Positions 21,704 to 57,661 of a DNA stretch of 64,000 nt are shown here, piece by piece (position 1 is the stretch's first letter; each line of letters opens with the position of its first letter). The stretch comes from Eudromia elegans. Lineage: Eukaryota; Chordata; Aves; Tinamiformes; Tinamidae. The notes under the pieces were generated by a model, which saw only the letters and a list, made by a program, of their open reading frames with translations, did no database searches and had not been told where the DNA came from. The position numbers and the translations under genes were made by a program. The stretch covers positions 5,007,209 to 5,071,208 of the forward strand of contig PTEX01000012.1 of the NCBI GenBank assembly GCA_003342815.1, written 5' to 3'.

Positions 21704-21915
21704 GTCAGTTAAATACCTCTAATTTATTGCTTGTTAGTGATATTCAAGTGACTCGATGCCCACTGGTATTTTATCCTTTGGACACGAGCGACATTAAACA
21801 ATGTGTATTAATGTTATGTGTGCAAGCTTGACAGCAATGAGCTTTGTCCTGGGAAAGTCTCAAATGGGCTGGGAGAAGCTGATTTGTACAATATTTTAGT
21901 AATCTTTCTGGTTGT

Positions 21916-22690: not shown

Positions 22691-23414
22691 GTAGGTGACT
22701 TGTCCCTTATTTGTTACTCTCCTCTTTGCATTTCCTTAGCTGCTTAACATGATTCTGCAAGAGCAATTTGAAACCTGAATTCAATTAAAAAAGACAGTAA
22801 ATGAGGTAAACTGGAAAGTGTGTAGAGCAAATGACCTCATGTGTAATGTGCTTACTGTGGCAAGTTCTTGAATTCTGGCATGCCGAGTATATGCATAAGT
22901 ATTTTGTTTTTAACAGAACAGATGAGTTTCCAGTGTTGCACATGCCTTCTTGATGCTTTTTTTCATTACCTTTGACAAACGATCTCAGGGCTCTTACTGC
23001 CTGTCAAATTAGGGTAATGAGAAGGAGCAAATGGATTTTTAAGTTGGTTTGAGTGCGTTCTTCAGGGAGCAGAAGATGGCTAGAACTGGTGGGTCATGGT
23101 AGAGGTTAGAAAGCGTCCAGCTGCAGAGGAGAGACAGGCTGCTCCGGGCTCCGCGCAGGGACTCCGGGGCAGGCAGGCGGCCAGAACGAGCCATAAAAAT
23201 AACTAATGGGTTAGCTCTCTGGGGCTCAAATTGGTCAAGTAGGAGAATACGGAGCTGTTTACATATGTCCACTAATGAAACTGAAATGATCTGAACGTTT
23301 CTGATATGCCAGTGCGTTAAAATGTTCAGTAGAAATCTCACATTTTGTAATCCTTTATAACGTGATTTTTTCTCTCACCTCCGATGCTATAGTTCAGTTG
23401 TAATGTAGTAATAT

Positions 23415-23438: not shown

Positions 23439-24420
23439 CTGAATTTGATAACGCTGACATAATTTGTATGTCAGATATAGTTTGAATTCTATTAATATTC
23501 ATCATCCCAATAATGATGAAGAGCAGAAGGTAGATACTCTCCTGTGGCAAGAGTCTCTTGCTGATTTGACTATTTAATTTGTCTATTAGATAAAAAAAAA
23601 AGAGGAAAGGAGTAGGGGTACCCACAAAGATGCTGCAGAAGGTTTGAAGTGGGTAGATATTAAAGAACCTGCATCAGAGAACTGATTCAGACAGAAAAAG
23701 ACGCAGCCTTGCCCACGCCAAGGACAAGAGATTCTACATTTTTTGTTTAACGTAACCGCACAGTAAGGTTCAGATGGTGGCAGCAAATACCAACAAATGA
23801 ACTGTACAGTCTGCATATTATTCTGATATCAAACAGGTATACACGCATGTGTAGCGTCCAGCTAAAATGCTTGTTTTTGGTGTTTTAAAATAATAAGCTC
23901 ATAAACCTCTGGAGGTAGAAATGTGCTAGCCAATAGCCCTGAAAAATGACCAAAGAGATAAAAGAAAATCCAGCTTTTATGCTGAACACCGTTAGCTGTA
24001 AAGTATTTACTAGGGTAAGAGATATGGAATGTTTCTCAACTATTCATTTCTGTGGTTTCTAGATAATTTCTGTAACATTTCCTCTGAAAAAAAAGATATA
24101 CTTATTGAAAAGTTGATTTTGCACTTTAGTGGCTTGTTAGGGTGAATCTGTTTTAGCAATGTTAACGGCAAATGCAAAGGATCTTTTTACATGTCTTGTG
24201 AATCTAGAAAGCATCCCTTCCCCGTTTGTGTGCGTAAAGATAAAACCTTTATTTTGCATTTGTTGAGTCTTAACTAATTCAAATCAGCTGTTCGTTGTTG
24301 CTTACATGAAATGATTGTTGTTCAGTTGCTGGCTTTAAATTATGGCCTGATGTTTGCATAGTGCCTCTTCTGTGTGTTGCATTCCGTACAACGAGCTGAT
24401 TTCCCCTTACACCATTCCAG

Positions 24421-24560
24421 GCTTCCAGGACCCTCCAGGGTGCCAGCTGCAGGCAGCAGTACCAAAGTCCAGGGAGCTTCTAACTTAAATCGGCGAAGTC
24501 AGAGCTTTAACAGCATTGACAAAAACAAGCCTCCACAGTATGCAAACGGCAGTGAAAAAG
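24421..24560 (+). CDS. NAV3: NAV3 exon: RLPGPSRVPAAG...NLNRRSQSFNSIDKNK
   Basis: This 140-nt exon (phase 2 to phase 1) begins by completing an Arg codon. It reads LPGPSRVPAAGSSTKVQGAS, then NLNRRSQSFNSIDKNKPPQY and ANGSEK, and ends with the first base of an Ala codon. The acceptor is ACCATTCCAG and the donor G|GTAAGT. The RLPGP and NRRSQSFN cores are shared with NAV2, so this is a conserved linker element. RRSQSF is a plausible basophilic phosphorylation site (RRxS) and possible 14-3-3 contact, which is inference. The exon differs from human NAV3 at a few positions only (for example Tyr-Ala-Asn-Gly-Ser against Tyr-Ala-Asn-Gly-Asn). Confidence 0.97.
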
Positions 24561-30415: not shown

Positions 30416-31421
30416 CGGATTCGCCGAAAGGCCCTCACGCCGCGGCCGGCATGAACGGGACCGTGGCGGGCGGCGGTGCGCAGCCGCCGGCCTCGGCCAT
30501 CCCCTCGCCGAGCGCCAGCAAGCCGTGGCGCAGCAAATCCATGAACGTGAAGCACAGCGCGACCTCCACCATGCTGTCCGTGAAGCAGCCCAGTCCCGCC
30601 ACCTCCCCAACCCCGTCCGCAGAGAGGCTCAAGCCGCCCCCCGCGGAAGGCGGGAAACCTCCTTCGTCCGGCCAGAAGTCTATGCTGGAGAAATTCAAGC
30701 TGGTTAACGCCCGGACTGCTCTGCGGCCTCCGCTGTCGCTAAGCTCGGCACCCGGCGACGGCGGGCGAGACGACGATGCCTTTTCAGAGTGCGGCGAGGT
30801 CGACCTCTTGGGCGGCGGCGTGAACAGCGGGGGCTCCACAAGCAGCAGCCCTAAAGTGTCGCCGAAATTAGCCCCTCCAAAAGCTGGAAGCAAAAATCTG
30901 AGCAATAAAAAGTCTTTGCTACAGCCAAAGGACAAAGAGGAAAAGAACAGGGACAAAAACAAAGTTTGCACTGAGAAAACAGTCAAGGAAGAGAAGGACC
31001 AGGCCACTGAAACATCCACAAAGAAGAGCTCAAAAATTGCAAGCCTCATCCCAAAGGGGAGCAAGACGACAGCAGCCAAGAAAGAAAGTTTGATACCCTC
31101 TTCCAGTGGGATCCCAAAACCTGGCTCTAAGGTGCCCACGGCAAAGCAGGGCACTTCCCCTGCCTGCACGGGAAGCAAGGAGGTTGAGAAACTGAGGACT
31201 ACAAAAGGAAACCAGTCCCAACCAGCAGCAAAATCGCAGCTTGCTGAGAAGGCTTCGCCTCCCTGCGGCCTTGCTTCCTCTGAAGGGAAAGATCCCGGCC
31301 TCGCTCTTCCCGCCGGCTCCGCGGCCGCCAGCAGCGGGCACGGCACCGGCGTCGTCCAGCTCCCGCAGCAGCAGCAATACAGTCACCCTAACACTGCCAC
31401 GGTAGCCCCCTTCAGCTACAG
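30416..31421 (+). CDS. NAV3: NAV3 large exon: Ser/Lys/Pro-rich linker with S-x-I-P motifs
   Basis: This 1,006-nt exon (phase 1 to phase 2; 334 full codons) is the largest in the window. It runs from ADSPKGPH to NTATVAPFSYR. Blocks in order: SAIPSPSASKPWRSKSMNVK (shared in large part with NAV2), GQKSMLEKFKLVNARTALRP, an acidic patch (DDDAFSECGEVD), a Ser-rich NSGGSTSSSPKVSPKLAPP, a highly charged Lys/Glu stretch (KDKEEKNRDKNK, VKEEKDQ), KKSSKIASLIPKGSKTTAAK, ESLIPSSSGIPKPGSKVP and a final QLPQQQQYSHPNTATVAPF. Four S-x-I-P motifs lie at 30493, 31042, 31087 and 31105; such motifs next to basic residues bind EB proteins at microtubule ends. Acceptor GTGTTTTCAG, donor AG|GTAAGC. Its first third is far more GC-rich than its last third, with Ala/Gly where human NAV3 has Ser/Thr/Asn. 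Confidence 0.97.
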
Positions 31422-33310
31422 GTAAGCCCGGGCCGAGTGGCTTTGTGGTGTCCTTGAGAAGCGAGAGAGCAGCCAGTCGTGCTGGAGCACACTAGGTTCT
31501 ATCACAGCATCGCGCACACTTTTCTTAATACTGCGTTTTAATCGGTGCTGCTGTGCGAGTAATTTCCTCTACCTTACACCAAAGTAATCCACTGCAAATA
31601 TCGGCCATTCAGAATTCAGGGTATTTTGATTGGAAATGTGAATCGCAGGGTACATTCCCTGTGCAGCTGTGGAAAGGTCACAGCTGAGTCAGGCTTCCAA
31701 TGTGAGTGCTCTTGTTTGCCATTTAAAACCCTCAACATTTATTTGCCAATGCTCAATAATATTTGCTTAAAAAACACTATTTTCTTAAAGCATCCTAAAA
31801 TAAACTTTGCAGGAGTTTTCAGAGTATGTGACAGTACTAGCAAGTGATTACAGGAAAAGCCTTATGTAAACTTCTGCAAATATTCACAAGCATTTCAACA
31901 TTTTGGGCAGAGGGAAAAGGTAGTGGCTGCAGCAGGTCTTGTTTTGTTTTGTTTTGCTTTCTTTATACAGGAACTAAGTATAGATTAACTCCACAGAGAC
32001 AGTTAATTTTCATGGATGAGGCAAGTTCTTCTGATGGCCAAGGCTCTGAGATAGAGGAATGGGAGGTTAAAATGTATCAGCGTTTGAGAAACAGAGATGT
32101 AACTGCTGTTATACAGTACAGAAAATACAGTAAATGTAAATGACCGGCAGACTGATTTGACTAATCAGTTCAGATGTCAGCTGTTGGAGGGCTTTAGCTA
32201 CAGCTGTGGGCAAATTTAACATCTGATAAAACGACAAATACATTATTAAGTGAAATATGCTGGCAGTTGTTGTAAGTGAGTAGTACTGTAGATAATCTTG
32301 GCTGAAGATTAAAGAGGTGCTGAAGGAGGCTCTGAGGGAGTAGATCTATCATTACACACAACTAAACATAACTTCAAAACCAATGTGGGTGAGTGATGGA
32401 CTGTTACAGTTAATTCTGAACAAATCCAGTTGTGAAAATTATATGGGAGGGGGAAATGGCACAACATAGTGTATATATTTGTTTTAATATGCAGTGAAGA
32501 GCTGGTTTAATTTCAGTTAAATGTATCATTGAATGTGCTTAATATATGTGTTGATATAATTCATAATATTAATTAGCTCATGATCTGGAACAATTTCAGT
32601 GATACAGACGATTTGCACTGTGGTACATATGATGGCCTGCCTAGGGGCTAGGGTGCATAAATCTGGAGAGAAAGGGAGGCTGTGGTTTGCCCTCAGAGGC
32701 CTGTGCTAGTTAATGGCAATATTGCCAGACGTTGATGCCGTTTCATTGCGTGGTGGAGATACCTTATCGCTCTTGTAGGCTTCACCATGAAGCAAAATGT
32801 ATTTGGAATTTCAAAAGGAGATAGAAGCGTGCATCTTCCACTAAAAAATGGTATTAATAATCATCTCTTTGCTTCAAACAAGCAGCGAAGGCGACTGTAT
32901 TTGAAGTTAAATCTTGCATGAAAATAAAATTCTCAGAGCCGAAGTCAGATCTCAAAGCACTCTAAACCCAGAGTAATAGACTGTCTTTGAGGTTGCTTCA
33001 ATGTGTGTTTGTGTAACTGAGAGCAGAATCTGACCCACACATACACAGTAACTCTACTCCTTACAAATCTCAAGGGCTTTGTAAGAGTAGAAAATGCTTT
33101 CATAGAAGAATATAAATATAACCAAGGGTAAAATATCCATATTTCCAATGTCAGCAGAATTTTTATTTTATTTTACCTTTTTTTTGTGGGCGTGCAGTAA
33201 GTAAAAGTTTGCGTGAAGCTGGGGCACTGTATTTACATTTTCTCACTCTTAAATATAATTGTTTTGCAGTGAATAAATGCTCAGGTGTGCTTGCTAACTG
33301 CTAAAACAGC

Positions 33311-33401
33311 TTTATAGATAAAATAGAGTAAATAAAAGATAAAAGATTAAAAAAAGAGGTATAGATAAATGGATATATAGATAAAAGAGTAAATAAATAA
33401 C
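33311..33401. repeat. A/T-rich direct repeats (TATAGATAAAAnAGTAAATAAA)
   Basis: TATAGATAAAATAGAGTAAA near 33312 recurs as TATAGATAAAAGAGTAAATA near 33375, with related AGATAAAAGA and TATAGATAAATGG units between. It is a degenerate A-rich tandem array. Confidence 0.7.
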
Positions 33402-35871
33402 AGTGGCCATTCATACCAACTGTCTTCATACAGCTAGAAGGAGTGCCCAGGACCGACAGATTTGCACTGCAGTCCTCGGAAAAACTTCAGCATAATTCAG
33501 CAAAAATACAGTACATTTTTCCAGAATGCTGCATAAATCTGCCAAATGTTGTGTACTACTATGATTGTTTTAAGCTGTTTGCGTGAGGAAAAGTAATTTT
33601 TTTTCTGGCTTGCTGCTGTTACCTGCAGATATCATGTATTTTGCAAAGGGTTATTATTAGCCCTTTATTAATATCCCTTAAGCGGATATTAATGTAGGTA
33701 TGTGAGTGGAAGGAATTATTTAGAAGTTGTAGATTTTTTTTATAAATGAGTGGTAGGTAGAAAGGAATGGTTCACTAAAAGATGCTGAAATGATCTATTG
33801 GACTATTGAGCTCTGCACTATTGGTACCTGATCCCTATCTGATATCACATTGTATTCATGCCTTTGAAACACTATGGCATGGAAATTCACATGGGTTTAC
33901 CACTTCTAAGTTTAGTGACTACAACACTCAATATAATTTGAATACTTCCATCCTCCTCAATGAGTGATTATTTATTTTCAAATACATGTTTGTTTATTTT
34001 TAATTACACAGTAATTAAATTTTACATTTGCAATCATCTACCATCTTTTACATGTCACTTCTGAACTTGACTGCAGGGTCTGCACTAAAGCAGGTAAAAT
34101 CTGGCTGCCAGAGAACTTTATAAGAGGGCGTGAAAACAAAGGTGTAAGGCAAGGTCTAATTATTTAAAGCAGACTAGCCATTACTTTAAATTACACATTC
34201 TTTTACATAAGCAGAATTAGAAAAAGATGCAAACTGCATAATCAGCTAGAGTCTCTTGGGCTTGTATCTAGATTCACCATAGAATTTAGTTATCTCCCTC
34301 ATGCTGCTTAAATTTCAGATTGAAAAGAGACTTGATGCTTACTAAGCTACAAGGGAAACAGGGGAAGAAGCATTAATGAAAAAAAAAAGGCAAAATTTTG
34401 TTGCGGGCATGGAAGCCTACTGTGTGCAACTACTACATTATTTTTTTGTGAGCTCAACTGTGCAAATTTACAGATTTCCTTGATTGATGTAAGTCAACAT
34501 GGCCCTACATTGAGTATGTGGTGTGGAGGCAGTGAACATTTGCTGTGAATTTGCTCTCGTAGTCATAAAGGAGGGTTTCAGAAGGAGAACCTTGTGTTCT
34601 AGTCGATTCAGAAATAACTGGTGTGCAGTGTTGAAGAAGTGCTATTGCCTGAAATGCCGAGCAGTGGAGAAGCTCCTGGCCAGGATGAGGTGACCAGTCA
34701 TCTTCCTGAGCTGTAGATCTGTGTCACACATCAGTCAACCTTCACTCCTTCAGCTCAGGGTGGTGGGTAACAGCAGAGACCTGTGGAAGAGGTTTCAGCA
34801 CTGCCTGAATTGAGACCTCCTAGAGAGATGCACTTCCAGTGTCAATGCCAGAGACTGCAAAAGCATTTTGGCATTGCTTCTGTCATTAAGGAATAAGATG
34901 CTGATGACTTCAGCTATCTAAGAGGATGATAGAGTGAGGTTGGAGATAGTTTCTACTTAAAAATCCATGGTGATAGGATAAGAGGTAGAGGATGCAGGTT
35001 ACAGCACAGGAAATACTGATTAAATGTAAGAAAAGATGGTGTTTTCACCATCTAAGCAGATCTGCTTTGAGTGGGAGACTCTAGAGCTTCTTTCGGTTAT
35101 ATTATGATGATGATTTTCTGGTGACAAAAGCATTCACTCAGGGTAGAGGAAGGAAATATCGATATAATAAAAATATAACCAGATACTAAAGTATTTTTCC
35201 TGTTGCCTTTCCCATATGGTGTTTGAAACACGTTTATTACTGGGCTCTAGGTTGGTGGGTGTATGGGAACCATACAGCTCTGATGGATAGGAAGATTTTG
35301 CCTGGTTCTACCTCTGGAGGCATAGGGAGGTTCAGTTCCAGCTGCCTGCTCAGCATGTTTGTATGCTGCCCTAGGGAGGAAAAGTAAACTGCTCTTTAAA
35401 GACTGTAAAAAAGGCAGCATCCACAGTGATTGCTGAAGCCATATCTGTTGCCAGAGTTAATAACTAGAAGTTAATTCTGGTTGTCTGTGTCGTCTGTGCT
35501 TTTTAATAATACATTGTTCTACTAAACATATTGCAACTCTTTAAATATGTGATGATTCAGTCATACTGCAGTGCCTCCTTGGTTTCTGCTATTTACATTA
35601 CTGTTGTGAAGTTAAAACCAACAATCACTACTAAGATTTTACAATGGGAGCTAGCAATAAACACTGCCATGCACCACTTCTGCTTGCAGCAAAACCTGGA
35701 ATTAGAAAAATCCCCACATTTTCTTATCCATGTTTGACAGGCAGTTGTGAAAGCAGACTTGCCAAGGTAGAGTCTTGGGGTTGAGAGTTGGGAAGTGCTG
35801 TTTATTATCTGAAGCTATTCTTTTAAATTGTCAAGTCTGGCCTTGTCTCTTTGATTAAATTATCAATAAAA

Positions 35872-35922
35872 TGTAGGTTACAAGACCAGTCTTGCAATGT
35901 GGGTTACAAGACTGAGTCTTGT
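35872..35922. repeat. Two-copy direct repeat, about 25 bp
   Basis: TGTAGGTTACAAGACCAGTC and TGTGGGTTACAAGACTGAGT follow each other almost directly, each continuing into CTTG. It is a small diverged duplication with no visible function. Confidence 0.65.
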
Positions 35923-36099
35923 TCAGTCTTCTGCTGTTGCAAGCAACCATGCAATGCCCTTCATAAACCAACCCAACTACATATTAATGTAGTTGTTCCC
36001 CAGTACTGGGAAGTGGGAAGATTCCTCCAGAATTTCACTCACCTCATTGCTCAAAACCACCTACAACCCACACATTGAGACTGCATCCATTCATTATTT

Positions 36100-36410
36100 T
36101 GCTAATATGGCCCTGTAACTTGGAAAGCTCTTTTTCCTCTTTACAATCGCTCTGTCTAAATACATAAGGGAGTAATCATATTCCCCTCCTTCTCTTTTGC
36201 AAGACTAAACCAAATTATCTTTTTTGTTTCCTTTCCTAAGAGTTTCCTTTTCCCCATGATTACCTAAGTAACCTTTTCCGCAGCTGTTCCCAATTTAATT
36301 CACATCTTGAACCCGGGTGATCAAACTGCACATGTTGCAGATGTGGTCCTGCCAGTCCCTTACAGTGACAGTGATGCCCCTTGGAGAGCTGTAGGATGAA
36401 AAAGCAGCAT
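36100..36410 (-). mobile_element. Degraded, old CR1/L3-like LINE fragment
   Basis: The plus strand resembles the reverse complement of ancient CR1/L3 elements: TAACCTTTTCCGCAGCTGTT, then CACATCTTGAACCCGGGTGA, then CAAACTGCACATGTTGCAGA and TGTGGTCCTGCCAG. This follows the order of the CR1 region encoding the reverse-transcriptase C-terminus (CTGCACACAGTA-like, then a GTGGCCTCACCAG-like segment). It is much more diverged than the other copies, and its ends are uncertain. Confidence 0.5.
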
Positions 36411-37038
36411 ATTTGTGGGATATCTCTTGGAATGTCAAGTAGTAACCAGCCAATCTTTGATGTTTATCAAAAGTTCACTATTTCGTTAGGGGCAGGAAAT
36501 TGCTGACTGTGTTAAAGACATTTTCAGGTAGTCTTCCAAATTCTAGTCTTAATTACTTTTCTGCAGGCTTATTTTAATCAACTCGAATGAGCCTCTGCAG
36601 GTGTACTTAGAGCAGGATTTGTGCCATTAAGTGTGTTTTGTGCTTTAACAAATAGGTAATATATAATTCATTGAGTTGGGGTATATTTATTCTCTGATTG
36701 CTGTGATTAATATAGAACACAGATTGTCCTGTTTTCATGCTAGTTGCTTAAATTAACCTGCCCTGCAGATGCACAGCGCTGTTATAAATATCCACAGGGG
36801 AGCTTTGACTGCGCCGAGATTCTCTTCACTCTCCTTCATGTCAAGAGGGAGATGCAAGGATTTTGATTGCCTTTAGAAGCCGTGGCTTATGAATGGGCAG
36901 AGGGCCATTCATTAAGGCCGATATGTAAGCGTAATGAGAAAATCCCTTAATTTTCTCTGTCCTTGCCTGGAGCTTAACCTGTGCCATAGTCCTGGAGAAA
37001 TCACTTGACTCCTTCATAGGATTAATATATCCCACAGG

Positions 37039-37080
37039 AAAAAAAAAAAAAAAAGAAACAAAAAGAAAAAAAGGGGGGGA
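37039..37080. repeat. A-rich tract with AAAAG units ending in G7
   Basis: A run of about 16 A is followed by GAAACAAAAAG, seven A and seven G. It is a low-complexity tract just upstream of the CR1 pair. Confidence 0.8.
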
Positions 37081-37278
37081 AAGCCAGAGTAGAGGGTAAG
37101 ACAAATCTCACAATATCACTTTCCTCTTAAGCTAAGATGGTTTAGCTAAAGAGGAGGCCAACTGCCTGCTTAATCCAATGGATCGTGTCCTGTGACAGGC
37201 TCAGCACAAAGCTGCCCTATGTTTTAAGGCACCAAATCTATATCAGGTTTTCCTTGAACCAAGACCTAGGATACCTCC

Positions 37279-37440
37279 ATAGAATCATAGAATAATTATG
37301 CTTGGAAAAGACCTTCCTGATCACTGAATCTGACTGTAAGCCCTGCAGTGCCAAACCATGTCCCTAACTACCTCATGTACATGTTTCTGATGCTTGGAGA
37401 TATTTTACTTGTAGACCATTCCTAGCCCATCCAGGCTAAG
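37279..37440 (-). mobile_element. CR1 LINE 3' fragment, minus strand
   Basis: The plus strand starts ATAGAATCATAGAATAATTA and GCTTGGAAAAGACCTTCCTG, then GCAGTGCCAAACCATGTCCC, the reverse complement of a common avian CR1 3' UTR. The 3' end is on the left at 37279. It is 5'-truncated where the opposite-strand CR1 begins, around 37440. Confidence 0.8.
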
Positions 37441-38297
37441 ATGGACATCTAGGGAAAAAAGAGCAGGAACTTGGCCTCCAGACACTGAGGAACAGAGCGG
37501 AAGTGCTGACTACCAGCCGACCCCCTGGAGATGTGGTAGGAGAGGGACACTTGGTGAGGGCCCATCGCCGGGGCCCCCTCTTGGTCTCAGCAACCCCATG
37601 CAACGCTATGGGCTTGGGGCAGGGTGGCTGGAGAGCTGCATGGCAGAAGGGGATCTGGGGAGATGATCGATAGGCAGCTGAACGTGAGCCAGCGGTGTGC
37701 CCAGGTGGCCAAGAAGGCCAGTGGCCTCCTGGCTTGTGCCAGGAACAGTGTAGCCAGCAGGACCAGGGAAGGGATCGTCCCCCTGTACTAAGAACTGGTG
37801 AGGCCGTACCTCGAATGCTGTGTACAGTTCGGGGCTCCTCACTACAAGAAAGACATGGAGCGGCTGGAGCGTGTCCAAAGGAGGGCAATGAAGGTGGTGA
37901 AGGGGCTGGAGCACAGGCCTTATGAGGAGCGGCTGAGGGAGCTGGGGTTAGAGGAGGCTCAGGGGAGATCTTACCGCTCTCTACAAGCACTAGAAAGGAG
38001 GTTGTAGTGAGGAGGGGGGCGATCTTTTCTCCAAGATAACTACTAGTAGGGCAAGAGGAAATGACCTCAAGCTGCACCAGGAGAGATTCAGGTTGGATAT
38101 TAGGAAGAATTTCTACATGGAACAGGCTGCCTAGGGAAGCGGTGGAGTCACTGTCCCTGGCAGTGTTCAGGAAACATGTGGATGAGGCGCTTAGGGACAA
38201 GGGTTGTCAGACAGAGCGTTGAAGGGCTTGTGGTTAGACTCGATGGTCTTGAAGGTCTTTTCCAACCATAAGGATCCTATGATTCTGTGATTCCTGA
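37440..38297 (+). mobile_element. CR1 LINE fragment with RT C-terminus, plus strand
   Basis: The plus strand carries the end of a CR1 ORF2: [18 protein letters not shown], then after an in-frame TAA (37788) [20 protein letters not shown] and RLRELGL, followed by the [21 protein letters not shown] C-terminus. The 3' UTR ends in CTTTTCCAACCATAAGGATC and CTATGATTCTGTGATTCC. Stops and a frame change show it is dead. The left boundary, about 37440, is approximate. Its right end is the retroelement 3' end, so it lies back to back with the minus-strand copy at 37279. The long minus-strand frame 37436-38200 is an antisense shadow. Confidence 0.85.
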
Positions 38298-41200
38298 GGG
38301 TACCTCAGGACTGCCTGAGGGCTGGTGGGACCCTCTGCTCTTTGAGGCCACACTCGGCTTCCCCCCCGCTCCAGAGCTAGTGCCTTTTGGACTGTCACTT
38401 CCAGAGCAAATAACCATCTTCTCAAGTACTCCACCGTAGTGAGGGCTCACTTTGCTGATCCGTGATCTTCTCGGGAATTTCTGTTGTAACCTCCAACAGC
38501 TGAAATCATGGATGTTTTCCCCAAATCAAACATAGAATTGCAGAATAAAGTCAGTAGAGCAGTTTTTTAATTTTGTTTTGATAACAAATCAAATTTATTT
38601 GTTGCTGTCTTTACACTTTAAAGTAAGATAAAAGAGATGTTTCACAATCTTAGATCTGCTATTTAAGACTGCCTGCAAATTTAAGAAAACATTGAACAAA
38701 AGATCACATTTACATTTGTTTTGGATTTCCAAGGTTTTGTTTCCAATAATGAAATCAAACATTTTAAAATCATTAGCATGACATGATCATTATTGTTTAG
38801 TATTATTATTCAAGGTTTAGATTCCAATGTTATCTTATGCTGTGGAAACTGGATTTTGTGCTACTATTAACCACAGCCATCAGGTTTACAAATTGGAATG
38901 GAAATCTTTGCAAGTGCTTGTTCTTAGGTGTTTTATCTGCTTCCATTCCTGCCTACAGCAGCAGCAGGTTTTTGAAAATGAGACAAAGCATAGCACCGAA
39001 GAGAGGAGCAGGGTTGTAATTGGTCTTTGCCTTATCTCTGAAAGGTTTTGTTTGATGTGAGCAAGTGAGAGTTTGTGTTCATGGTTACTCCAAGTAAACA
39101 GATTCATCCATCATTTGTAATTTTACTTAACTCCTCACTCCTTTGTACTCTTGTTCTTGTGAGGGAATCTAGTCCTTTTATAGAAAGCACTTACCTTCCC
39201 ACACAGTCAGTGGAGAATTAGCTATTTGCCTTTCCTTATGGATTGTATAAACAATGACGGAGGGCAATTGAGATCATCCAAGTACTGTTTGCCTTCCCCA
39301 TTTGCCGTGTAATAAGTACCACCTTTTCCATTTGTACTCGTTACTCCCATAATGAGCACAATAGTGCAGATGCTGGGCGCTGGCTATCAGCTGGGATCCA
39401 GGCCACTTAATCCTTCTCTCATGATAGATGTCCAAATAAATGGGAATGGATCCTTTTTTGGAAGGTAGAGTGCTTGCTTATCGGATTTTTGATCATTCTT
39501 GGAAGAGGTTGCATCCACCTTTCTGTCTGAACAGTTTCACTGTCAGGAATAGAGTAGGGTCAGAAAAAGAGCAGGCAAAAAGGATCCCTTTCCCTTTCTA
39601 CCCAGGGGTGCTCTGATGTAAACTCCACGTAGGTCTCAAGCTACAGCAGTGAATACTGGAGCTGTACCCACCTAGCCGAGGGCTCTTACGACAAGACTGA
39701 AATTAGCCTGCCTTTTTCCAGTTAGGTTTTCCGGTCTCCCTCTGGCTCCAGCCCTGGTAGCTCGGTGCCTGGGACTCAGTTACGAGTGTGGGGGCTGCTT
39801 CATTTGCCTGCTGGCCGACAACATTGCTGGCTAATAATGAGTGCCTGCCTGTAAGATGTGATTTTAGGCTGACAGAGTTTGTCCTGGGCTGATCCAGCGC
39901 TAAGTTTTCCAGCTAAGCCCATTGAGAAGTACTTGTGAGTGTTTGTGGCCTCTTGAAGTTATATTCAATGTAAGTAGCTATTTTCCCTTGTACATTTTGA
40001 TGATTTGAAGCAATTTTGAAGTGAATTTGGAATTTCCATGTGTGCGTTTGTCAAGGAGGACTCGAGCGAGCCCTTGTTACCTAGGACAGTGGCCAGATAT
40101 ACCAAGGGAAGAATGACATTGGAGGTGGCAGGACACAGTATTTGTACTTGCAGCACAAACTGTGCTTATATTTTCAGTCTAATGGTGTGTGGCAGAGGGT
40201 AATAGTCGACAAGGACCCCATTTCTTTTTTCTGTTTAATGGAGCAGCTGTCTGTTCCCGGCATCTCAAGAGCACAGAAATTTATAAGGAAGAAAATGCAT
40301 TAGACCAGATAGTCCTTGTGCTCTGTTTAAGAACAGTCAGGGTTAAACCTAAACTAGAATTCTGATCAACAGATTCCACCACAGCCGTGTTTGGTCCTTT
40401 GTATATGCTTCTCTCTGTTCCCCAAGGTACTTCCACTACTTACTGAACAGCTCTGTTCTGTAAGTAACCTTTCAGTAAACCTAACAATGGGAAAGTTATT
40501 TCAGAAACTAACTTTCCATAAAATTCATTTCGGAGCAAAGACACTGTTTTTTTTCTCTTATTCTTATAAAATATGTTTGGCAGAAAGCTAAATACTTACT
40601 TGTACAGTTGACCATTGCAAATGTTATGGTGAGCTTTAAGAGTTGAGATATTAAATGTAATGCTTTAAAAATAGGCATAAAATATTTCAGTGGTCTTTAT
40701 AAGAATTCAAGACTCTCTAAATGTGTTATTCATGTCAGTAAAGTCCAAAGAGCTTAAGCTCTAAGTGAAGATTTTTTTCCATTTTATTTTGAAAGGTGAT
40801 TAGTGTTTCAAATTTTTACACTAATTTTTAGTTATATTTTTTAATGTAACAAATGTGGAACAAGTTGTTATTTAATATAGTCATTGTTTAACAGCTCACA
40901 CGTCCTTCAGCTGTTCCTTAGGAAGAGACGGTAATTGTGTTATTTGTATTGTAAATATTAGCATTATAATATACCAAATAACTGTAGTCCACAAAACTGT
41001 GTGCATTATAATTTGTCAATGGTATCCATACAAATATACTATCACAGAAAATATAGGCTATTTGTTAGCAAGTAAATGAGAACACTTTCATTATCCCATT
41101 TCCCCACAGTCATATACATGCCATGTATAGAGGCATTATCAAAAGAAGCTGCACATAGATTTAAGTGTCTGAGTAGGATTTTCATTGCAGCTTCGCGTAA

Positions 41201-41591
41201 GCTTCTTTACATGTGGCCTTTCTCACTTAATATTTCAGCAATCAGTTACTAGTTTTCATTTCCCTTATATACATCCAAGGATGTGATTTAACCAACTTTA
41301 ATGGATTCTGCCTGTATCTTGTTGACACCTCCTACAGAGAAAAAGAAACATTGCTCCAAATTTCCCAACTTAAATTCTGAGTTGTTCCCACAGAGAGCGA
41401 ATTCCCTGCAAATGTGTGTAGCTGGAGTCAAACTAACACAGTAAGAATGTGACCTTCATGATATATTCACCATATGGCTTTTTCTGAGATGAGAACAGAG
41501 AAAAGAATCTGCTTGGAGCCTCAGTTAACACATGTGTACCTCAATATATGTATGGTAGATAATAATAATTAGTCTTCTTGCTTGATTTCAG

Positions 41592-41707
41592 AACTCTCTC
41601 GGAAAATGACAGTACCTCTTTACCACCTGCTGACTCCTGCACCAGTCCTACTAAAATGGATTTGTCGTTCAGTAAGACTGCCAAGCAGTGCCTGGAGGAG
41701 ATATCTG
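41592..41707 (+). CDS. NAV3: NAV3 exon: SADSCTSPTKMDLS...KQCLEEIS
   Basis: This 116-nt exon (phase 2 to phase 1) completes an Arg codon and reads TLSENDSTSLPPADSCTSPT, then KMDLSFSKTAKQCLEEIS, plus the first base of a Gly codon. The acceptor is TTGATTTCAG and the donor G|GTAAGT. The second half (CTSPTKMDLS-SKTAKQCLEEIS) is almost identical to human NAV3, while the first part (TLSENDSTSLP against human AHSENEGTALP) varies. It is the last exon used only by the CH-containing form: both it and the alternative first exon at 47803 end in the same phase and join the exon at 53572. Confidence 0.95.
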
Positions 41708-44943: not shown

Positions 44944-46919
44944 GCAGCACAATTTTGCAGACAGAATTTAAAAATGAGAGAAACGACTGATAAGGTAGTA
45001 TCTGAAAAACGGTTTGGCTCGTGATTAATGGTGTGGTTAAGAACAAGTCGTTTAGACTTCCTTACCCAGCTTTTCCTATTTGTAGTAGCTGTGATGTTTA
45101 CCAATCTACTGTAAGTTGGTTTCAGAAAGATGCCAGTAAGTTAATAATTCAACAAGCCTTTCTTTGAAAATTGAACATGTCTGTAGCTACAGAGTATTAT
45201 TTTTATGAAATCAGTGACAATGTTTGGCTATAAGTGCTTACATGTTCAAAGAGCTTAACGCAAAGCATTTGATTAAACAATTATTCATGAATTTACAAAT
45301 ATTGACTAATTACATAAAATCTGAGGCAAGAAGCAGAAATGAAAGAGAAATTTTAAGAGTTGTATGCCAATATCAATGGCAGGATTAGCATAGTAATGTT
45401 CATTTTTTAAGCTTTTATGCTTACTCTGCTTGTTTTTTCTTTCTGAAAGAACTAGCTAATTAATGGGTGTGGAAATAGTTTGCAACATTTTTTTAGCTAA
45501 GCTTAGCTGAAGAGACTCATAATCCTATGCATTTCCAGATCTATTACATAATTCATTTATAAGACTCCAAACTATGCACTGAGACTTCAAAGAAAGTTTT
45601 ATCTGACAGAAAAAAAGAAAATGTCCCTAGATTATTAGTTCTTAAAATCATTTTAATAATTCCTTTTATGAATGATGCGGTGAAAATAAGCTGCACTGAC
45701 TGTGATGGCCTGGGGAAATTCCCTGTGCTCTTCTTCACTTAGACAGGTTCCTCTCTGCTGGAAGGGGAGTAACGGAATTGCAAGGTAGGCAAGGAATAGT
45801 GCTGTGTCATGACATTTGCTGTCCTGCTGCCTCCTCTGGAGCCTGCTTCATTTAGATAAGTTTGTGTGTTTGCTGCTGTTATTCATAAATTCATAAGGGA
45901 AGCGTGGGCTTTACGAGAGTGCATTTCGGTAAATAAGCCTGAGAATTTCCCACGCTGCAGCTCCGTGTTTGGTCCAGCGTCACCCACAGCGCGCTGTGGC
46001 ACAGCGGGATGAACGCACGTGGTCCAGGATGCCCGCGGGTGTCTGCTGTACTTGAGGATTATCGTGACAAACTGCAGCAAGAGAGGCGATGGATGGAGGG
46101 GGAGAAAAGCTCACAATCTCGTGATTAGAGGCTGCAGTATCATGTGTGAGAGTCCAGGAAAGGCACATGGGCAGCGGTGGTGCCTCGGTGCCCGAGCAGG
46201 TGGTTCCTCGGGTTTGTCATGTATGTGCCTTAGACGGGGCAGCTGGAATTCATGCAGGAATTCTGCAAATGGTCTGTAATTCTTAGGGTGGCATTTTTTA
46301 AAGGTTACTCCCCTGTCAGGCTTTCCCAGGTAGGGATTTATGACAACTGCATTTTGGTGGTGACAAAAGCAGTATAGGATTATACAGTGATTTTCAGATG
46401 TGTTTGTTTCTGCATGCTTTTTAATGATATTAATTGCCCCTGGATAAAAAGTTTGCATCCCGAAATTGATTGAAATTCTGGTAGTTCTTTGTTCAGCTGT
46501 CCCCATTCCTAGTACAAGCACCTTTTTTCCAGTGGGAAAAGATACAATTTTGCACATAGTCTTTCTCAGTTGGTATTTTATTTAAAAGCAACATTTAATA
46601 GTAGTGTACATAGTTCAGCCATGACACTGAGTAGATTTATTTTTTAAAAAAAGAAGAGTATTGCACTTACTATGATTTCTTCAAAAGGTTGCAAAGCAGT
46701 GATTTTATCACAGCTCTTTAATTCCGTAGTAGCCTCCGAATCTCCCAGAGATGCACACGAGGTGTGTTCTAAAGAGAAAGAAATGAAATGCTTCCTTTTA
46801 TAAATCACCTTGCAGGGAAGGTACTGCTGTGCTTCATTTTGCAGCTTAGGATCTTAAATTACATGTAGTTTTTATTCGTAGCAGAAATGGCAAGGCTAGA
46901 GGAGCGTTTGCAAATCTGC

Positions 46920-47802
46920 TTTCAGCTGCCGGCACGGGAGTAGCAGCGAGATGGAGGGAATAATAGTTTGTCCTCCTTACCTTCGGGGGAGGAAGCCAGC
47001 GTTTGCCTGCGAGCTTGCTCTGCCAGCGTAGCATCCCGTTCAGGTGCAGCCGTGGCTTGGAACCTGTGGCACCCGCGTCCCCGCTTTGATTCAGCAGGAT
47101 GTTTGCTGCCATGGCAGCCAGCAGCATTCACCGCAGTAGCGGAGAAGAGTCATATATCTGGGAATGCAGGTTGAATACTAAAATGTGAGGAGGCTTCTGC
47201 AGGGCTCTGCTTCACTGGTTAATTTGGGCTCGTTATTGAGCTCTGACGTGGAGGCAGCACTTGCAGTTCCGTGTCAGCCCGTCTAAAGTGACGAGCTGAG
47301 TGTTGGGCTCGGGCACGAGCCGGTGAAAGGGGGGAAAGCAGAGCCGCGGGCGGCCCTTGCGCCTACTCGGGCTTGCAGACCGCGGTGGCCGTGGACAGAG
47401 ATGCGGGCCCATCGCTCCGGTGAGCCCGGACGTCAGATGGAAAGGGGAAAACACAGCTGGTGTGGGGATTACTTCTGTGCTGGAGCAGAGTGCTCGATCA
47501 ACTCTCTTCTGCTTGAGAGAAATGCAAGTCAGAGTGACTGTAAGTGCTGCAGACTCGCGTGACGGGGGAGCAGTGGCTCCGCGGAGACGGCAGCGTGGTT
47601 TTCAAGGAAAAGGACTGTGCCTGCCTGGTCGCTTGCGGCTCGGACCCTGCGTGTTGGAGCTGTGCTTCTCGTCACGAGTGCAAGTGTCTGCTACCTGGCA
47701 TGTGCAGCGTGCGGGGTGGGAGGCATCTCCTCTTAAACCTTGCTGAGGAACTGAACTGCTGCCTGTCTGAAGAGCTGGGAAATCTGGCTGAGGCGAAGCA
47801 CG
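46920..47802 (+). promoter_or_regulatory. NAV3: CpG-rich probable alternative promoter and 5' UTR of NAV3
   Basis: From about 46920 the composition changes from AT-rich intron to GC- and CpG-rich, densest at about 47280-47420 (GCCGCGGGCGGCCCTTGCGC, GACCGCGGTGGCCGTGG). It stays high into the coding exon at 47803. There is no convincing TATA box, as is usual for CpG promoters, and the transcription start cannot be placed. An in-frame TGA at 47752 closes the frame upstream of the ATG, so the last part before 47803 is probably 5' UTR. The overlapping frames 47357-47746 and 47544-48008 are shadows. Confidence 0.6.
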
Positions 47803-48346
47803 ATGCAGCGATCGGCCGAGCTGTCCGTGTTCAAAGGCAAGGAGGTCAGGAGAGGGTGTGCTCGTCTCCAGAAGCAGAAGTCCCTAACCAATCTCACGCT
47901 CATCGGCGAAGGGGAGAAGAGGCGATACTCCTGCAGGGAGAACTGGTTCGGGAACGCCTCCAAGTCCAGCCAGAGTTACCAGCAGCGGGACGCAGAGGCT
48001 GCCGGTAGGAGCTCGCTTTCCCGGTCCCTCTCCAAGTCCGTGCACTCCCTGTGCCACACCAGCCTCTCTGTGCCCCAAACGTTCCAGGTGCTCCCACCTG
48101 TCCGGAGCCGGATGCCCGGGAGATCAGCTGTCCGGCGGGCGGGCGAAGGCTTTGGGATCGATAATGAGGAAGGGGGGAAATCGGACGATGAGAATGCGCC
48201 CTGTGCGTCCCGTTTCCGCGGCAGGAGCTGGGCGGAGGAGGAGGAGGAGGAAGGCTGCCTGCGTGAAGGGACCGCGCATCTGGATGAAGATGTCATCATA
48301 ACGATGCTGGGTGACCTAGAACAGGTCCTTTACACTGATATCTTAG
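47803..48346 (+). CDS. NAV3: NAV3 alternative first coding exon, NAV1-like N-terminus without CH domain
   Basis: An ATG at 47803 (A at -3, in-frame TGA at 47752) opens 181 codons plus one base, then the donor G|GTAAGT. Phase 1 matches the acceptor at 53571, giving ...VLYTDIL-G-EDPEARRMRTV. Protein features in order: AELSVFKGKEV, QKQKSLTNLTLIGEGEKRRY, a Ser-rich stretch with SLSRSLSKSVHSL, a basic Arg/Pro-rich part, NEEGGKSDDENA, an acidic run (AEEEEEEG) and DEDVIITMLGDLEQVLYTDI. NAV1, as I remember it, begins with the same series (AELKVFKSG, RKQKSLTNLS, KTLSKSEHSL, DGKSDDE, VTVLGDLEQLLFSQ) before its own version of RTVxNxxDLRQNLEETMSSLRG. The NAV family therefore appears to share an ancestral CH-less first exon. 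This form would lack everything encoded from 6849 to 41707. Confidence 0.85.
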
Positions 48347-51300
48347 GTAAGTTAACTTCAGCTTGACATGCAAAAGAGCAGGAGGAGACCTCAGTGTTAG
48401 GACATATCTGCACGGATCAGATTTCTGCTCTTGACAGTGATGTGAGACAGAGCTGGGCTTTTTTGCTATAGTATGCAGAACCAGGGGGTTGCCATTCCCT
48501 CCTTGTTTGCTTACTCTTAACTCTAAGGACGGTAGGAAATGAAGGCAAATATCTAAATCACTTTTGATAGGTGCATGGGCAGCAGCAGTATGGGAGTAAT
48601 AGAGCAGAGTTTTGTTAGCTGTTTTAAAATCTAAAGCAAAACATTGAAGTGCTGTTAACTTACTCATCAGTAGTTTAATGGCATTTGTTCTCTTGAAGCT
48701 AAAATTGGAATCCTAAATCCAAGGTTTGGTTTAAAATAGGAAATGTCTTGGCCTACTTACAGACTGCCCAGCCATTATTCCGCCCCCCTACCCTTTCTAC
48801 CAGTAATTTCATCCATAAGCCTGGAATTACGAGTGTCAGGGTTTCACAGTTTAGTTATATCAGGGCATGCCAGCAAGCATTTGAAATCCACAGCCACAGG
48901 TGCTTCAAAAGCCTTCTGAGCTCCTGGTTTTGCTTTTCATCTTTCATTCCTTTAAAAAAACGCTCACAGTGTTTGTTTCTGAAGCTTTGTGCTGCAAGCG
49001 GTCAAGCGGTTGAAGTGTGAGCTGGTCCTTCCGAGGTTGTGCCGCACGTGTCCAGCCTGGAGGCGATTCTCTGGGCAGTGGGCTAGGCCCTGGCTGTACC
49101 TAACATACACGTTTTGCAGTACATGCAAAGTAAAAAGCTCAAAATGATGAAGAAAAACGTGACTTCTTTTCATACTTTCTGTTCTGAGAGGATGCCAGTT
49201 TTCTAGAAGAGGCAAACGTGGCTTTGCCTAGAAATCAGGGGCTGGTAGCAAAGGAAGCCACGTCCTGCCCCTGCCTGGCTGTGTGTCCCTGAGCACATCC
49301 TGGCTCTGGCGTGAGCCTCAATTTCCCTGCTTGCAGACTGACACTGGTACTGGCCTCTGTGAATGGAGGAACTGCTTGTTATTTGTAAATCTGGTTACTA
49401 ATGGACTTACTGTTTATCTGCTTTGGGCTATAATTACATGCACGCAAGTATTGAAGTCATCATGAACTTTATTGTTAAGTGTGCAATTCTGGATAAGCTT
49501 CAGATTTGTGAATGCAAAAATTTAGTTCAGGTGGTTTCAATAAAATGTTTATTTCAATATCTTGTGTATGTATCTCATGCAGTGGTAGAAAAGATTGTGC
49601 TCTAGGTATTCATTCAGGGAACCTGCTCAGTGCTTATAGACAAAAATTGGGAACAATCTTTTGAAATATTTGTGTTTTGTATAAATGAGGAAGCGACAAG
49701 TGATTTGAGCATATTTCTTGGGGACAGCAAAGTATTTGCATTGGACATTCATGTAAGATGAGCAGGATTTTGTAAGGAGTTTTTAAGGAACTTTAGTCTT
49801 GCATATATATATTACTTTGATGTAAAATAAAAAAAAGAATGGCTTGAGATAACAGATCAGCAAGTGTTTCTGGTGTGTTAGATTGTGCAGATATGGGTAG
49901 ACTGAAGGATGGCAGTGGGCCATGTTAGTAGGGAGTCTGGGGGAGTGTGATCCTTTTGAACCCATATGGTGAGTCCCCATCCTGCTGCAGCCAGCAGGCT
50001 GTTTCTTCCAACGTGTAAAGTGTAGCTGCTTTTCAGAATATGGAAAGCAGTCACCATCTCTGTGGTCCTTCTTATACAAGGAGGCTTGATGGAGGTGGGG
50101 GGAAACCATGATGCTGTCCCAAAAATGTAGAAAATGGTCAAATGTGCAAATTTGGTTTATGCAGTAAATTTCTGTTCTCAGTGCAGGAAATTTGTCAAGT
50201 CTCATTTTCTTTTTCTGCTCGTGACTTCTTCACCAATGGTTTACATAAGCCCATCAAAAGAGCCCCATGATAAGCAGGGAAAGGAAAAACAAATATTTTA
50301 AAAACACTTTATTTGTCTCATTTTAGTTATGAGGATTTTGTAAGTGGTACTAGGCAGTATTTTAAGACCATGAATTGTTCTTCTGAATCTTCTTCAGATT
50401 GTTCTTTTTTTACAAAAAAAAAAAGGTAGAGAAGTTTTGAAATTACCCCTCACATCAGTGAGAGCTCAAAAGAGATTAGACCTCAAACCTTGCACCTCTC
50501 AAGGGCAGAATAATGCTGCTTTGAATATGGTAGTTTGTTTGAGGGTGAAATCTCCCTTATTTTTTTCTGTGAAGATGTGTTTTGGCAGTTTGCCGTGTGT
50601 ATGTACCTTTTTTTATTGCAATTATATATCTTAAGGCTTTGTTCTACTAGTTATTGTGCAATATATAATAAGAAGACAGTTGCTGTCATTTTTGCTGCAA
50701 CAACTTGCAGTGTTAACGTGAAGCAAAAGGACAACTGGCAAGGATAAATAAGGAAGGAAAAGGCAAAGTCACTTCAAATGTGAATTATCTTCGGTTCCTC
50801 AAATAACTATACAGGGTTTGTATTGAGCTGCCATATTTCTGCCTGGTTATACCTTGGAGTTTGTCTTTCTGTGTCTGTAACAGAAAATGCTCTGGTAGCA
50901 GCAGGGATGAGCTGTTCTTTCAGCCCTGGTTTGGGGCAGGGTTTTGGGTCTCCCTGGTGCAGGTCTTGTGGAACAGTTCAGTTTGTAAGTGCTCAAAGAC
51001 TCCACCCCTAGTCAGAACTCAACTAAGATTTTTAAGGGAGCTATTGTTCGAACATGGTTTGCTCCTGCAGATTCTCCCTTATATTTGAAATAAATCTGTC
51101 ATGGTGCATATGTAAAACCAGTTTAAAGAGAGATTAGCATTGTATTTATGAGGATTGTACTCAGGATAGAGTTGCTGCATTAGCTGCTCTGTCCATCTAT
51201 GACCATTCATATACTTGTTCTCCTACTGCAAGCCAACCTCAGTATATTTTACCCAAGCCTTCAAATAGATGTTGAGATTGTGCATGCAAATGTATTTTAT

Positions 51301-53571
51301 ATTTTACAAGAGTGAAATATCTTAGCACTGCCCAGTACTAATTGATCTTTACTTGGATCTCAGTTTTGTATCACGTTGAATTTAAATTTGCAAGACTGTC
51401 TCCTGTTCCATGAATCCAAAGATGAATCAGTTCCTTCATGTTGCAAAAGTTCCAAAAGGAAGTCAGAAACTTGTTCTTTCTGTTGGATGAGAATGCTGAA
51501 ATTTAGAATTAAATATTAAAGATGTTTTTAGTGGTGGCACGATTTTGTTATAGATTATATTTTTTTCAGAATGAGAAGTAAAATTAAGTTAGCAAAATGA
51601 GGTATGACATGAAATTTTTCATTGATGGAATCAAAAGAAAATAATTTGCCCTTCATGTGCAATGGTGACAGTCCACATAACTAGAATAAAAATGGTTCCT
51701 GCCAGCCTTCTTTCAAGTAACATATATGAGGTAGACCCCAAAGAAGGATGCTAGCCTTGAACAAACCAGTGGTTTTGTCACCGATTTTATTTTAATATTA
51801 TTTAATTCTACAAAAGAAAAGACACAAAATTATGTTACTTGAAAGTCACTGGTATGCAAAAAGTATTACTGAACTAAAGTGTATGAATGTGCTGGAATAC
51901 ATGCATTTCTCTATCTTCAATTATGACTACAAAATCTTTATGTTGTAGATTGCTTTGAGTTTTATTGCATTTCCCTTTTTGCAGCATGGAAAATTTTTTT
52001 TTTCTCAATTGTGTGAAGTAGCTGCGATTTGGGATGCTCCGGGTGAAGTTCTGTGGGCTTTGCTCTTCAGGAAGCTGGAGTAGTTTGTCCCAATGCATAG
52101 AATCATAGAACCATAGAATGCTTAAGTTTGGAAGGGACCTCTAGAGGTCATCTAGTCCAACCCCCCTGCACACGCAGGGTCCCCTAGAGCATGTGGCACA
52201 GGGTGATGTCCAGGCAGGTTTTGAAGATCTCCAGAGAAGGAGACTTCACCACCTCTCTGGGCAGCCTGTTCCAATGCTCTGTCACCCTCACTGTTAAGAA
52301 ATTCTTCCTCAAGTTCCTGTGGAATTTTTGGAGCTTCAATTTTTTTAACCGTTTCCTCTAGTCCTTTCACAGGCCACCACTGAGAAGATGCCGGTCCCAT
52401 CCTCCTCACTCCCTCCCTTGAGATACTTGTATGCACTGATGAGGTCCCCTCTCAGTCTTCTCCAGGCTGAAGAGGCCCAGCTCTCTCAGCCTTTGCTCAT
52501 AGGGCAGATATTCCAGCCTGCTGATCATCTTTGTAGCCCTGTGCTGGATGCTTTCTAGCAGCTCCACATCCCTCCTGCACTGGGGAGCCCAGAACTGCAC
52601 ACAGTACTCGAGGTGCGGCCTCACCAGGGCTGAGGAGAGGGGCAGAATCACCTCCCTCGACCTGCTGGAGACGCTCTGCTTAATGCACCCCAGGATCCCA
52701 TTGGCCTTCTTGGCCACGAGGGCACACTGCTGCCTCATGGTCAACTTGTCGTCCACCATGACGCCCAGGTCCCTCTCTGCGGGGCTGCTCTCCAGGAGGT
52801 CGGTCCCCAGCCTGTAGGCATGTCTAGGGTTATTCCTGCCCAGGTGTAGGACCCTACACTTGCCCTTGTTGAACTTCATGAGGTTACTCGCCGCCCAGCT
52901 GTCCAGTCTGTCCAGGTCCCTCTGGATGGCAGCTCAGAGTGTTAAAATCCATAATTCTATAAACGATGGGAGTGCCTGGAGTGTTTTGATTTTTATCCCA
53001 AGTAAAACACATGAAAAATAATCCCTCAGTTCAGGAAACTATTCCGTTGGAGGAAGGATGCTTTAGTAAGTGCCTGACTTCAAGAGTACTTTGAAATAGC
53101 CTGGATGTTAAGTGCATACTGAGAAGTTGTTATAAGAGCCATCCCAGTTCTTCCCAGACACAGATTTACCGAGGCCTTATTTCCGACCAAGTCATGTAAA
53201 ATGTCAAGGAGGAGAAAGAGACTGTGTGATATATCATCAAGTGGTCTGGGACTGCATCCTGCCGTGATTACAGAGGATGGCAATCCAAACATTGTAAATC
53301 TGAATTTTATTAATATATTTGGGCTCTATAAGGGATACTTCACTAGGACTCTTTTAAATGTTTTTTTTTCTTACGTATCATGTTTTATTTACAAGCATGT
53401 GTGTGTTTTATTACTGACAGGATGAGGTTTTATTTTTTAAAAGATTGAAAGAACAGATACACAGTCTAGAAAAATAGCATCTGTAAGTATTCTCCACTAT
53501 GTATGCATTTTATTTAACCTTCTGTACTGGGGTACACCAAAATATAGGCTCACGTTTTTTTTCTCTTCCAG
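48347..53571 (+). other. NAV3: NAV3 intron downstream of the alternative first exon
   Basis: This is the second half of the 41708-53571 intron for the long form, and the whole first intron for the short form. It begins GTAAGTTAAC and ends in TTTTTTCTCTTCCAG. It contains one CR1 copy (52098-52935). The rest is AT-rich with no recognised exon. Confidence 0.8.
52098..52935 (-). mobile_element. CR1 LINE, 5'-truncated, RT C-terminus readable, minus strand
   Basis: The plus strand begins ATAGAATCATAGAACCATAG and GTTTGGAAGGGACCTCTAGA, so the element's 3' end is at 52098. On the minus strand, 52879-52406 reads as the C-terminal part of CR1 ORF2 ([76 protein letters not shown]), after which the frame shifts. 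It is the best preserved CR1 in the window, but it lacks the endonuclease and most of the reverse transcriptase, so it is immobile. The 5' truncation lies near 52935. Confidence 0.92.
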
Positions 53572-53680
53572 GGGAAGACCCCGAAGCAAGAAGAATGCGG
53601 ACTGTAAAGAACATAGCAGACCTGAGACAGAATTTGGAAGAAACTATGTCCAGCCTTAGAGGGACCCAGATAAGCCACAG
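53572..53680 (+). CDS. NAV3: NAV3 exon: EDPEARRMRTVKNIADLRQNLEETMSSLRG
   Basis: This 109-nt exon (phase 1 to phase 2) completes a Gly codon and reads EDPEARRMRTVKNIADLRQN, then LEETMSSLRGTQISH. It is among the most conserved segments of all three neuron navigators (NAV1: RTVQNVLDLRQNLEETMSSLRG), and is predicted helical with heptad-like spacing of Ile/Leu. It is the junction exon: both the long form (through 41592-41707) and the NAV1-like short form (through 47803-48346) enter here in the same phase. The acceptor is TTCTCTTCCAG, the donor AG|GTAGCT. Only one residue near the start differs from human (EDPEA against EDPET). Confidence 0.97.
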
Positions 53681-54016: not shown

Positions 54017-54400
54017 CACACTGGAGACGACCTTCGACAGCACCGTGACGACGGAGGTGAACGGCAGGAGCATTCCCAGCCTGGCGAGCCGCTCGGCGCC
54101 CGTGACGTGGCGCCTGGGCCAGGCCAGTCCTCGGCTGCAGGCCGGGGACGCGCCGTCCCTGGGTGCCGGCTATCCCCGCGGCGGCGGCAGCCGCTTCATC
54201 CACACGGACCCCTCTCGCTTCATGTACACCACCCCGCTTCGCCGGGCGGCCGTTTCGCGCCTCGGAAACATCTCCCAGGTTGACATGAGCGAGAAAGGGG
54301 GCAATGATTTGGATATGTCCACGGAAGTGGACGTTGGCGGCTACATGAGCGATGGGGACATTCTAGGGAAAAGCCTCAGAGCTGATGACATCAACAGTGG
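54017..54400 (+). CDS. NAV3: NAV3 exon: STLETTFDSTVTTEVNG...GYMSDGDILGKSL
   Basis: This 384-nt exon (phase 2 to phase 2, symmetric) encodes TLETTFDSTVTTEVNGRSIP, then WRLGQASPRLQAGDAPSLGA, GYPRGGGSRFIHTDPSRFMY, TTPLRRAAVSRLGNISQVDM and VDVGGYMSDGDILGKSLRAD, ending DINSG. The core WRLGQxSPRLQAGDAPS is shared by NAV1, NAV2 and NAV3; RFIHTDPSRFMYTTPLRRAAVSR identifies NAV3. The region is disordered and rich in SP/TP sites that could be phosphorylated, which is inference. Its first two thirds are very GC-rich compared with the flanking introns. Compared with human NAV3 it shows Ser/Thr/Asn to Ala/Gly changes (for example RGGGSRF against RSGTSRF). Acceptor TCTTGGCAG, donor GG|GTAGGT. Confidence 0.97.
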
Positions 54401-57541: not shown

Positions 57542-57661
57542 GTACATGACAGACGGAGGCCTCAACCTATATACAAGAAGCCTGAACCGAATACCAGACC
57601 TAGCTACTTCTCGAGACGTCATTCAGAGAGGGGTTCATGACGTGACTGTGGATGCTGACAG
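57542..57661 (+). CDS. NAV3: NAV3 exon: GYMTDGGLNLYTRSLNRIPD...VDAD
   Basis: This 120-nt symmetric exon (phase 2 to phase 2) completes a Gly codon and reads YMTDGGLNLYTRSLNRIPDL, then ATSRDVIQRGVHDVTVDAD, ending with two bases of a Ser codon. The GYMTDGG start repeats the GYMSDGD motif of the previous exon. NAV2 has YMTDGGLGLYTRRLNRLPD, and NAV1 lacks this exon's sequence (it goes from DDITTG straight to WDESSS). Skipping it would keep frame and would give a NAV1-like arrangement. The acceptor is TTTATTTTCAG and the donor AG|GTAACT. It is the last NAV3 coding exon in the window. Confidence 0.97.

Follow-up and report, generated by a model that had tools for sequence, protein, structure and literature searches.

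A short form of NAV3 in Eudromia elegans predicted to start in an internal exon homologous to the first coding exon of NAV1

Coy et al. (2002) reportedly speak, in the title of their paper, of different protein isoforms of the NAV3 gene. Its relative NAV2 has an alternative start ahead of exon 13 that yields a shorter protein, according to the available part of PMC2843687, and so also provides a short navigator with an internal start; the case differs from the one described here in that the exon concerned was not found in NAV2 of the present genome. NAV1 is described in the accessible text of PMC9877351 as reaching plus ends via its SxIP motifs and as having likely lost its 5′ end including the CH domain; the word 'promoter' does not occur in the text of that paper. 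Outside the family, the gene of the large cytoskeletal linker nesprin, which is unrelated to NAV3, works alike, in that short isoforms without the CH actin-binding part arise via internal promotion (PMC3981789, in the part available).

We analysed 64,000 nucleotides of Eudromia elegans DNA (the window; contig C14, 5007209–5071208), in which NAV3 exons lie in order on the + strand from 6849 to 57661 and give an open spliced reading. The long form is represented by an exon inside the CH domain (6849–6932; earlier CH exons were not found within the window), by an exon that carries the last part of the CH domain together with KQQQHHQQQ (9909–10088) and by one beginning SLTARYATQSNHSG (21633–21704), the limits of these three being those of the matches. 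They are followed by an exon beginning SRLPGPSRVPAAG (24416–24560, of which the 5′ limit is that of the match and the exact boundary may differ), a large exon with four SxIP motifs (SAIP, SLIP, SLIP and SGIP; 30416–31421) and an exon that ends with KQCLEEIS in phase 1 (41592–41707). The common exons begin with GEDPEARRMRTVKN (53572–53680), STLETTFDSTV (54017–54400) and YMTDGGLNLY (57542–57661), the latter being the last one found in the window. The − strand carries a 256-residue open frame inside the intron 31421–41592 (37439–38206; no Pfam match) and another of 175 residues about 0.6 kb before the exon at 53572 (52406–52933), which had no Pfam match either and which we take to resemble the end of a CR1-type LINE reverse transcriptase. 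Six open reading frames of the window other than exon A (below) hit no Pfam family, and the whole window gave no Rfam match.

The exon of interest, exon A (47803–48346, + strand), starts with an ATG at 47803, is open to 48346 and comprises 181 codons plus one base, thus ending in phase 1. In its reading frame a TGA stands 5′ of the start (47752–47754), and its end is followed by the splice donor GTAAGT (48347–48352). This site, TAG|GTAAGT, ranked fifth among the 3706 GT sites of the + strand of the window by a simple, approximate weight matrix. When 48346 is joined to 53572 the junction reads TDIL-G-EDPEARRMRTVKN, and the frame stays open as far as 57661. The exon ending at 41707, also of phase 1, can be joined to 53572 free of stops as well, and on these grounds the two exons are predicted alternative partners of 53572. 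Between the TGA and the ATG there are four AGs, none of them in phase to accept the exon ending at 41707; an upstream in-frame stop together with the lack of an in-phase acceptor is what marks an alternative first exon. Exon A also contains KQKSLTNL, LSKSVHSL, GKSDDE and LGDLEQ in that order. The preliminary description of this DNA had claimed an ATG-started 181-codon exon behind an in-frame stop, a consensus donor, the phase needed for 53572 and these four N-terminal motifs in this very order, and the window bears it out in all of these respects.

Exon A is conserved beyond birds. With the 181-residue query, 57 proteins out of 300 candidates matched at E≤0.001, all of them open frames by construction; 54 of the 57 cover at least 99% of the exon, which points to conservation exceeding chance. 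Most of the matches examined read through the same donor into the intron, in the manner of genomic frames, and loggerhead turtle, a gecko and koala are among the named ones. The ostrich exon (isoform X7, P0059) is orthologous to that of the window and does not differ in kind; the two are 80% identical, compared with 93% and 97% for two later exons. Across 32 sequences KQKSLTNL and the terminal LDEDVI.TMLGDLEQ are nearly fixed positions. The preliminary description had named frame-breaking changes in related birds as an observation that would speak against the exon, and two bird-like sequences do not fully keep the frame: P0057 aligns with the window in two different frames, and for P0054 the match starts only in mid-exon. 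Either loss or sequencing error, indistinguishable here, would account for both.

Predicted full-length proteins carry the same junction. Among 120 listed of 159 matches to exon A, 84 have a core of the NAV2/3 type and 35 a NAV1 core, P0111 being neither by pattern. The junction to 53572 is present in 82 of these 84 listed proteins, of which 79 begin in exon A (the other three being P0100, P0140 and P0142). Together with P0111 and P0135, 81 of the 120 listed proteins start inside exon A and are 1,127–1,930 residues long; most of these entries are named predicted neuron navigator 3 isoforms. They come from ostrich, songbirds, a parrot, turtles, lizards, marsupials and placentals including human, and the ostrich P0059 and human P0105–P0108 join the same first exon to the same core exon. 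A query with the sturgeon exon (120 of 242 matches listed) added ray-finned fish; of the 26 teleost entries inspected, 25 have a relative of exon A as their start. By comparison of predicted proteins exon A is therefore shown to be conserved in amniotes and ray-finned fish, and the search of other vertebrates proposed earlier finds it from fish to humans. By the same token the exon is not 'hidden', as it had been called: many predicted database isoforms, from birds to human, already carry it. We thus reject the idea of an unannotated exon; the short NAV3 isoform was already in the databases, and the interesting part is its kinship with NAV1.

The human junction very probably occurs in RNA. P0109, the sole RNA-like evidence, is encoded by a 6,663-base assembled contig of a public assembly and has 1,693 residues; aligned with the 1,700-residue human isoform over 1,700 columns it shows zero mismatches and one gap. 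Since the contig is too small to hold the introns, and the absence of mismatches argues against a retrocopy, we take P0109 to derive from RNA. As had been supposed, the predicted isoforms that begin with exon A lack the CH domain. Exon A would then be an alternative first coding exon of a CH-less NAV3, to which, jointly with the whole of the explanation developed here, we assign a probability of roughly 0.86; the bird isoforms themselves are predictions.

The earlier proposal that the 181 residues align with the N terminus of NAV1, and that the exon is older than the split of NAV1 from NAV3, holds well. Two profiles, built from 65 and 20 distinct sequences of the NAV3 and NAV1 exon, respectively, aligned over 171 columns (hhalign 99.4%) with a score of 138.1, as compared with 15.4 for the reversed control and at most 21.2 for 49 column shuffles. 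The NAV1 gene of this genome is situated on contig C187, where its exon ends in GDLEQLLFSQML-G|GTGAGT with only the last part assembled. The exon is cut by a gap, and everything upstream is N (C187:690001–700000). The next NAV1 exon (DPESQRKRTVQN) follows about 14 kb downstream, is homologous to that of NAV3 and is entered in the same phase. Thus the first coding exon of NAV1 (P0208 in Eudromia, beginning MLGSNLK) is shown by these comparisons to be homologous to exon A; it likewise comes without a CH domain. It is about 30% identical to exon A in the profile alignment, is longer, and carries an SRIP that is conserved in all 35 listed NAV1 entries (120 of 159 matches listed) and that NAV3 exon A lacks. 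Score, phase and homologous next exon support an origin of exon A before the NAV1/NAV3 split, and the usual start of NAV1 is, by the same comparison, the equivalent of the predicted short-form start of NAV3. A search of the whole genome with exon A gave three matches, from which the NAV1 exon was absent. Since this exon, partly in an assembly gap, was missed, that search says little about missing relatives.

Long predicted NAV1 proteins have, before their exon A, a stretch ending in QQSHPVTATVAPFHYR or a similar sequence. In a profile comparison this stretch aligns with the end of the large NAV3 exon plus the next exon (hhalign 95.2%, with a score of 64.1 against 15.6 for the reversed profile and 19.1 for the best of 39 shuffles), from which we infer that the predicted long NAV1 forms retain a remnant of the upstream exons.

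Exon A lies in a CpG-rich block that would comprise a putative internal promoter, the 5′ leader and the exon itself (46751–48600, G+C 0.56), and transcription would start in or near it. The block claimed by the preliminary description is real, with a CpG obs/exp of 0.69 where the median across 1271 500-base windows is 0.26. It is not special, though: qualifying CpG windows merge into six stretches, of which it is one, and three others (19001–19950, 22001–22900 and 45751–46400) are without any NAV3 exon. CpG richness as sole proof of a promoter was rejected for this reason. A lead for the promoter of exon A is the SOX10-dependent Nav3 start of PMC7430845, the available part of which counts Nav3 among the genes with such starts in Schwann cells and does not specify which Nav3 start is meant. 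It is conceivable, if rather unlikely, that exon A is truly the first coding exon but transcription starts further upstream, at least one non-coding exon lying between 41707 and 47803, and that the promoter is not the CpG block. In favour of this, the guinea pig model P0100 continues ahead of exon A with additional sequence, a portion of which has a weak likeness to 47118–47204 of the window (tblastn E=0.082); a long leader would be burdened by the nine ATGs that stand upstream of the start of exon A between 46900 and 47802; and the block is, as said, not unique in the window. On the other side, the block directly adjoins exon A and no upstream exon was identified. Considerably less probable is that exon A serves mainly as an internal cassette of CH-containing NAV3 transcripts, although several models read that way: sturgeon P0140 and Polypterus P0179 place it after KQCLEEIS, both entering two codons and a split codon before its Met; cat-type P0142, mouse-type P0143 and gar P0181 enter inside the exon; and the long NAV1 models P0144–P0178 carry their exon A internally, likewise entered just before its Met. 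Exon A stands behind CH-containing sequence in three listed proteins (P0140, P0142 and P0143), making cassette use possible in some species. Against this, the window has no AG of the right phase between the in-frame stop and the ATG, 79 of the 82 listed junction proteins begin inside the exon (120 of 159 matches listed), and the cat, mouse-type, gar and guinea pig entry points differ from one another, as expected of prediction artefacts. Dual use as first and internal exon may be old, and use as first exon only may be the state in this bird.

The likeness of the two first exons might itself reflect low complexity, or a later transfer, instead of common descent. Both exons are serine- and charge-rich and mostly predicted to be disordered (the prediction was run for NAV3), and, no exon A being detectable in NAV2 of this genome, its gain followed by copying is formally possible. 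We nevertheless regard such an origin as very improbable, because shuffled and reversed profiles reach 15–21 as compared with 138, and because splice phase and next exon agree. Moreover, among the long proteins listed, the sturgeon NAV3 exon hits NAV1 at E=8e-12 and the bird exon at best at 9e-8, the pattern expected if both diverge from one ancestor, and in the long NAV1 models a relative of the upstream pair of NAV3 exons is retained with its order unchanged.

In Eudromia NAV2 lies on the reverse strand of contig C81, with CH exons, an SxIP exon, a relative of the 41592–41707 exon and GEDPETRRLRTVKN in order, and the intron in which exon A would lie measures about 3.3 kb. No relative was found there: over 86 kb of the region without gaps the best tblastn hit (E 0.31) lay elsewhere than in this intron, and so did the best hit of three profile HMMs (E 0.89). 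The HMM scan dropped frames consisting mostly of N, including the NAV1 exon, and so had no NAV1 positive control; its NAV1 profile found exon A of the window at E=6e-18. A NAV2 copy of exon A in this genome, detectable by tblastn or HMM, is rejected, and the NAV2 alignment suggested in the preliminary description finds no partner in the equivalent intron. NAV2 is not among the protein matches listed either (120 of 159, and 120 of 242), to which we attach little weight. Most likely, judging from the assembled sequence, NAV2 of this bird lost exon A.

We slightly favour, over its alternatives taken together, the view that the ancestor of the vertebrate navigators had two starts, an upstream one for proteins with the CH domain and many SxIP motifs and one at exon A for short proteins without CH. 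The ancestor of NAV1–3 would already have possessed exon A; NAV3 would have kept both starts, NAV2, at least here, would have lost exon A while retaining the long form, and NAV1 would have lost the CH exons and now employ exon A as its ordinary and main start. If so, NAV1 is largely an old short isoform made permanent, and not a gene broken at its 5′ end. The finding is also a testable alternative to the view given in the accessible text of PMC9877351, where it is credited to Maes et al. The top-ranked literature matches, drawn mostly from outside subscription papers, contained neither exon A nor its NAV1 homology, and the shared ancestry with NAV1, the absence from NAV2 and the two-start ancestor were undescribed in them; PMC11978060 does not mention Nav1–3.

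Both autism (PMC9470534) and a recessive neurodevelopmental disorder (PMC11754320) have been connected with NAV3, as stated in the parts of these papers that are available. In the latter, the variants are named on the long transcript NM_001024383.2, and the homozygous c.243+1G>T hits the donor of NAV3 exon 1. Provided that human exon A functions in the way suggested by the sequences, this variant would spare the short form; changes in exon A, being intronic with respect to the long transcript, could escape notice. Should the two-start reading be true, variants in upstream NAV3 exons would remove the long form only.

The short protein was characterized on its ostrich relative P0059, in which Pfam finds Ubiquitin_6, AAA and the NAV lid, and no CH domain. 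Exon A itself hits no Pfam family and no PDB chain; it is predicted to be disordered or of low confidence (mean pLDDT 56) except for a confident helix at residues 162–180. Short NAV3 is without the CH domain and without the four SxIP motifs of 30416–31421, and it keeps one of five, an SGIP in the shared core, plus a TLIP by the AAA domain of a type that the available text of PMC9877351 does not count as SxIP. The preliminary description, which had the two forms share a core without CH domain or SxIP linker, was right about the CH domain and the four motifs; its further claim that this core is EB-independent has to be rejected, as one SGIP remains in it and NAV1 uses SxIP motifs for plus ends (PMC9877351, available part). 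The cell would thus choose between two NAV3 proteins: a long one that has the CH domain together with several EB-binding motifs, and a short one whose head is disordered and for which we expect EB recruitment to be weaker, not absent, and CH-mediated contacts to be missing. A conserved SxIP in NAV3 exon A was considered and rejected: of 157 entries, 59 contain the loose pattern [ST]x[IL]P, and its position varies among them. The SRIP of NAV1 is not among its 12 commonest forms, the most frequent of which is the SLIP of EHSLIPVPW, found in 21 entries.
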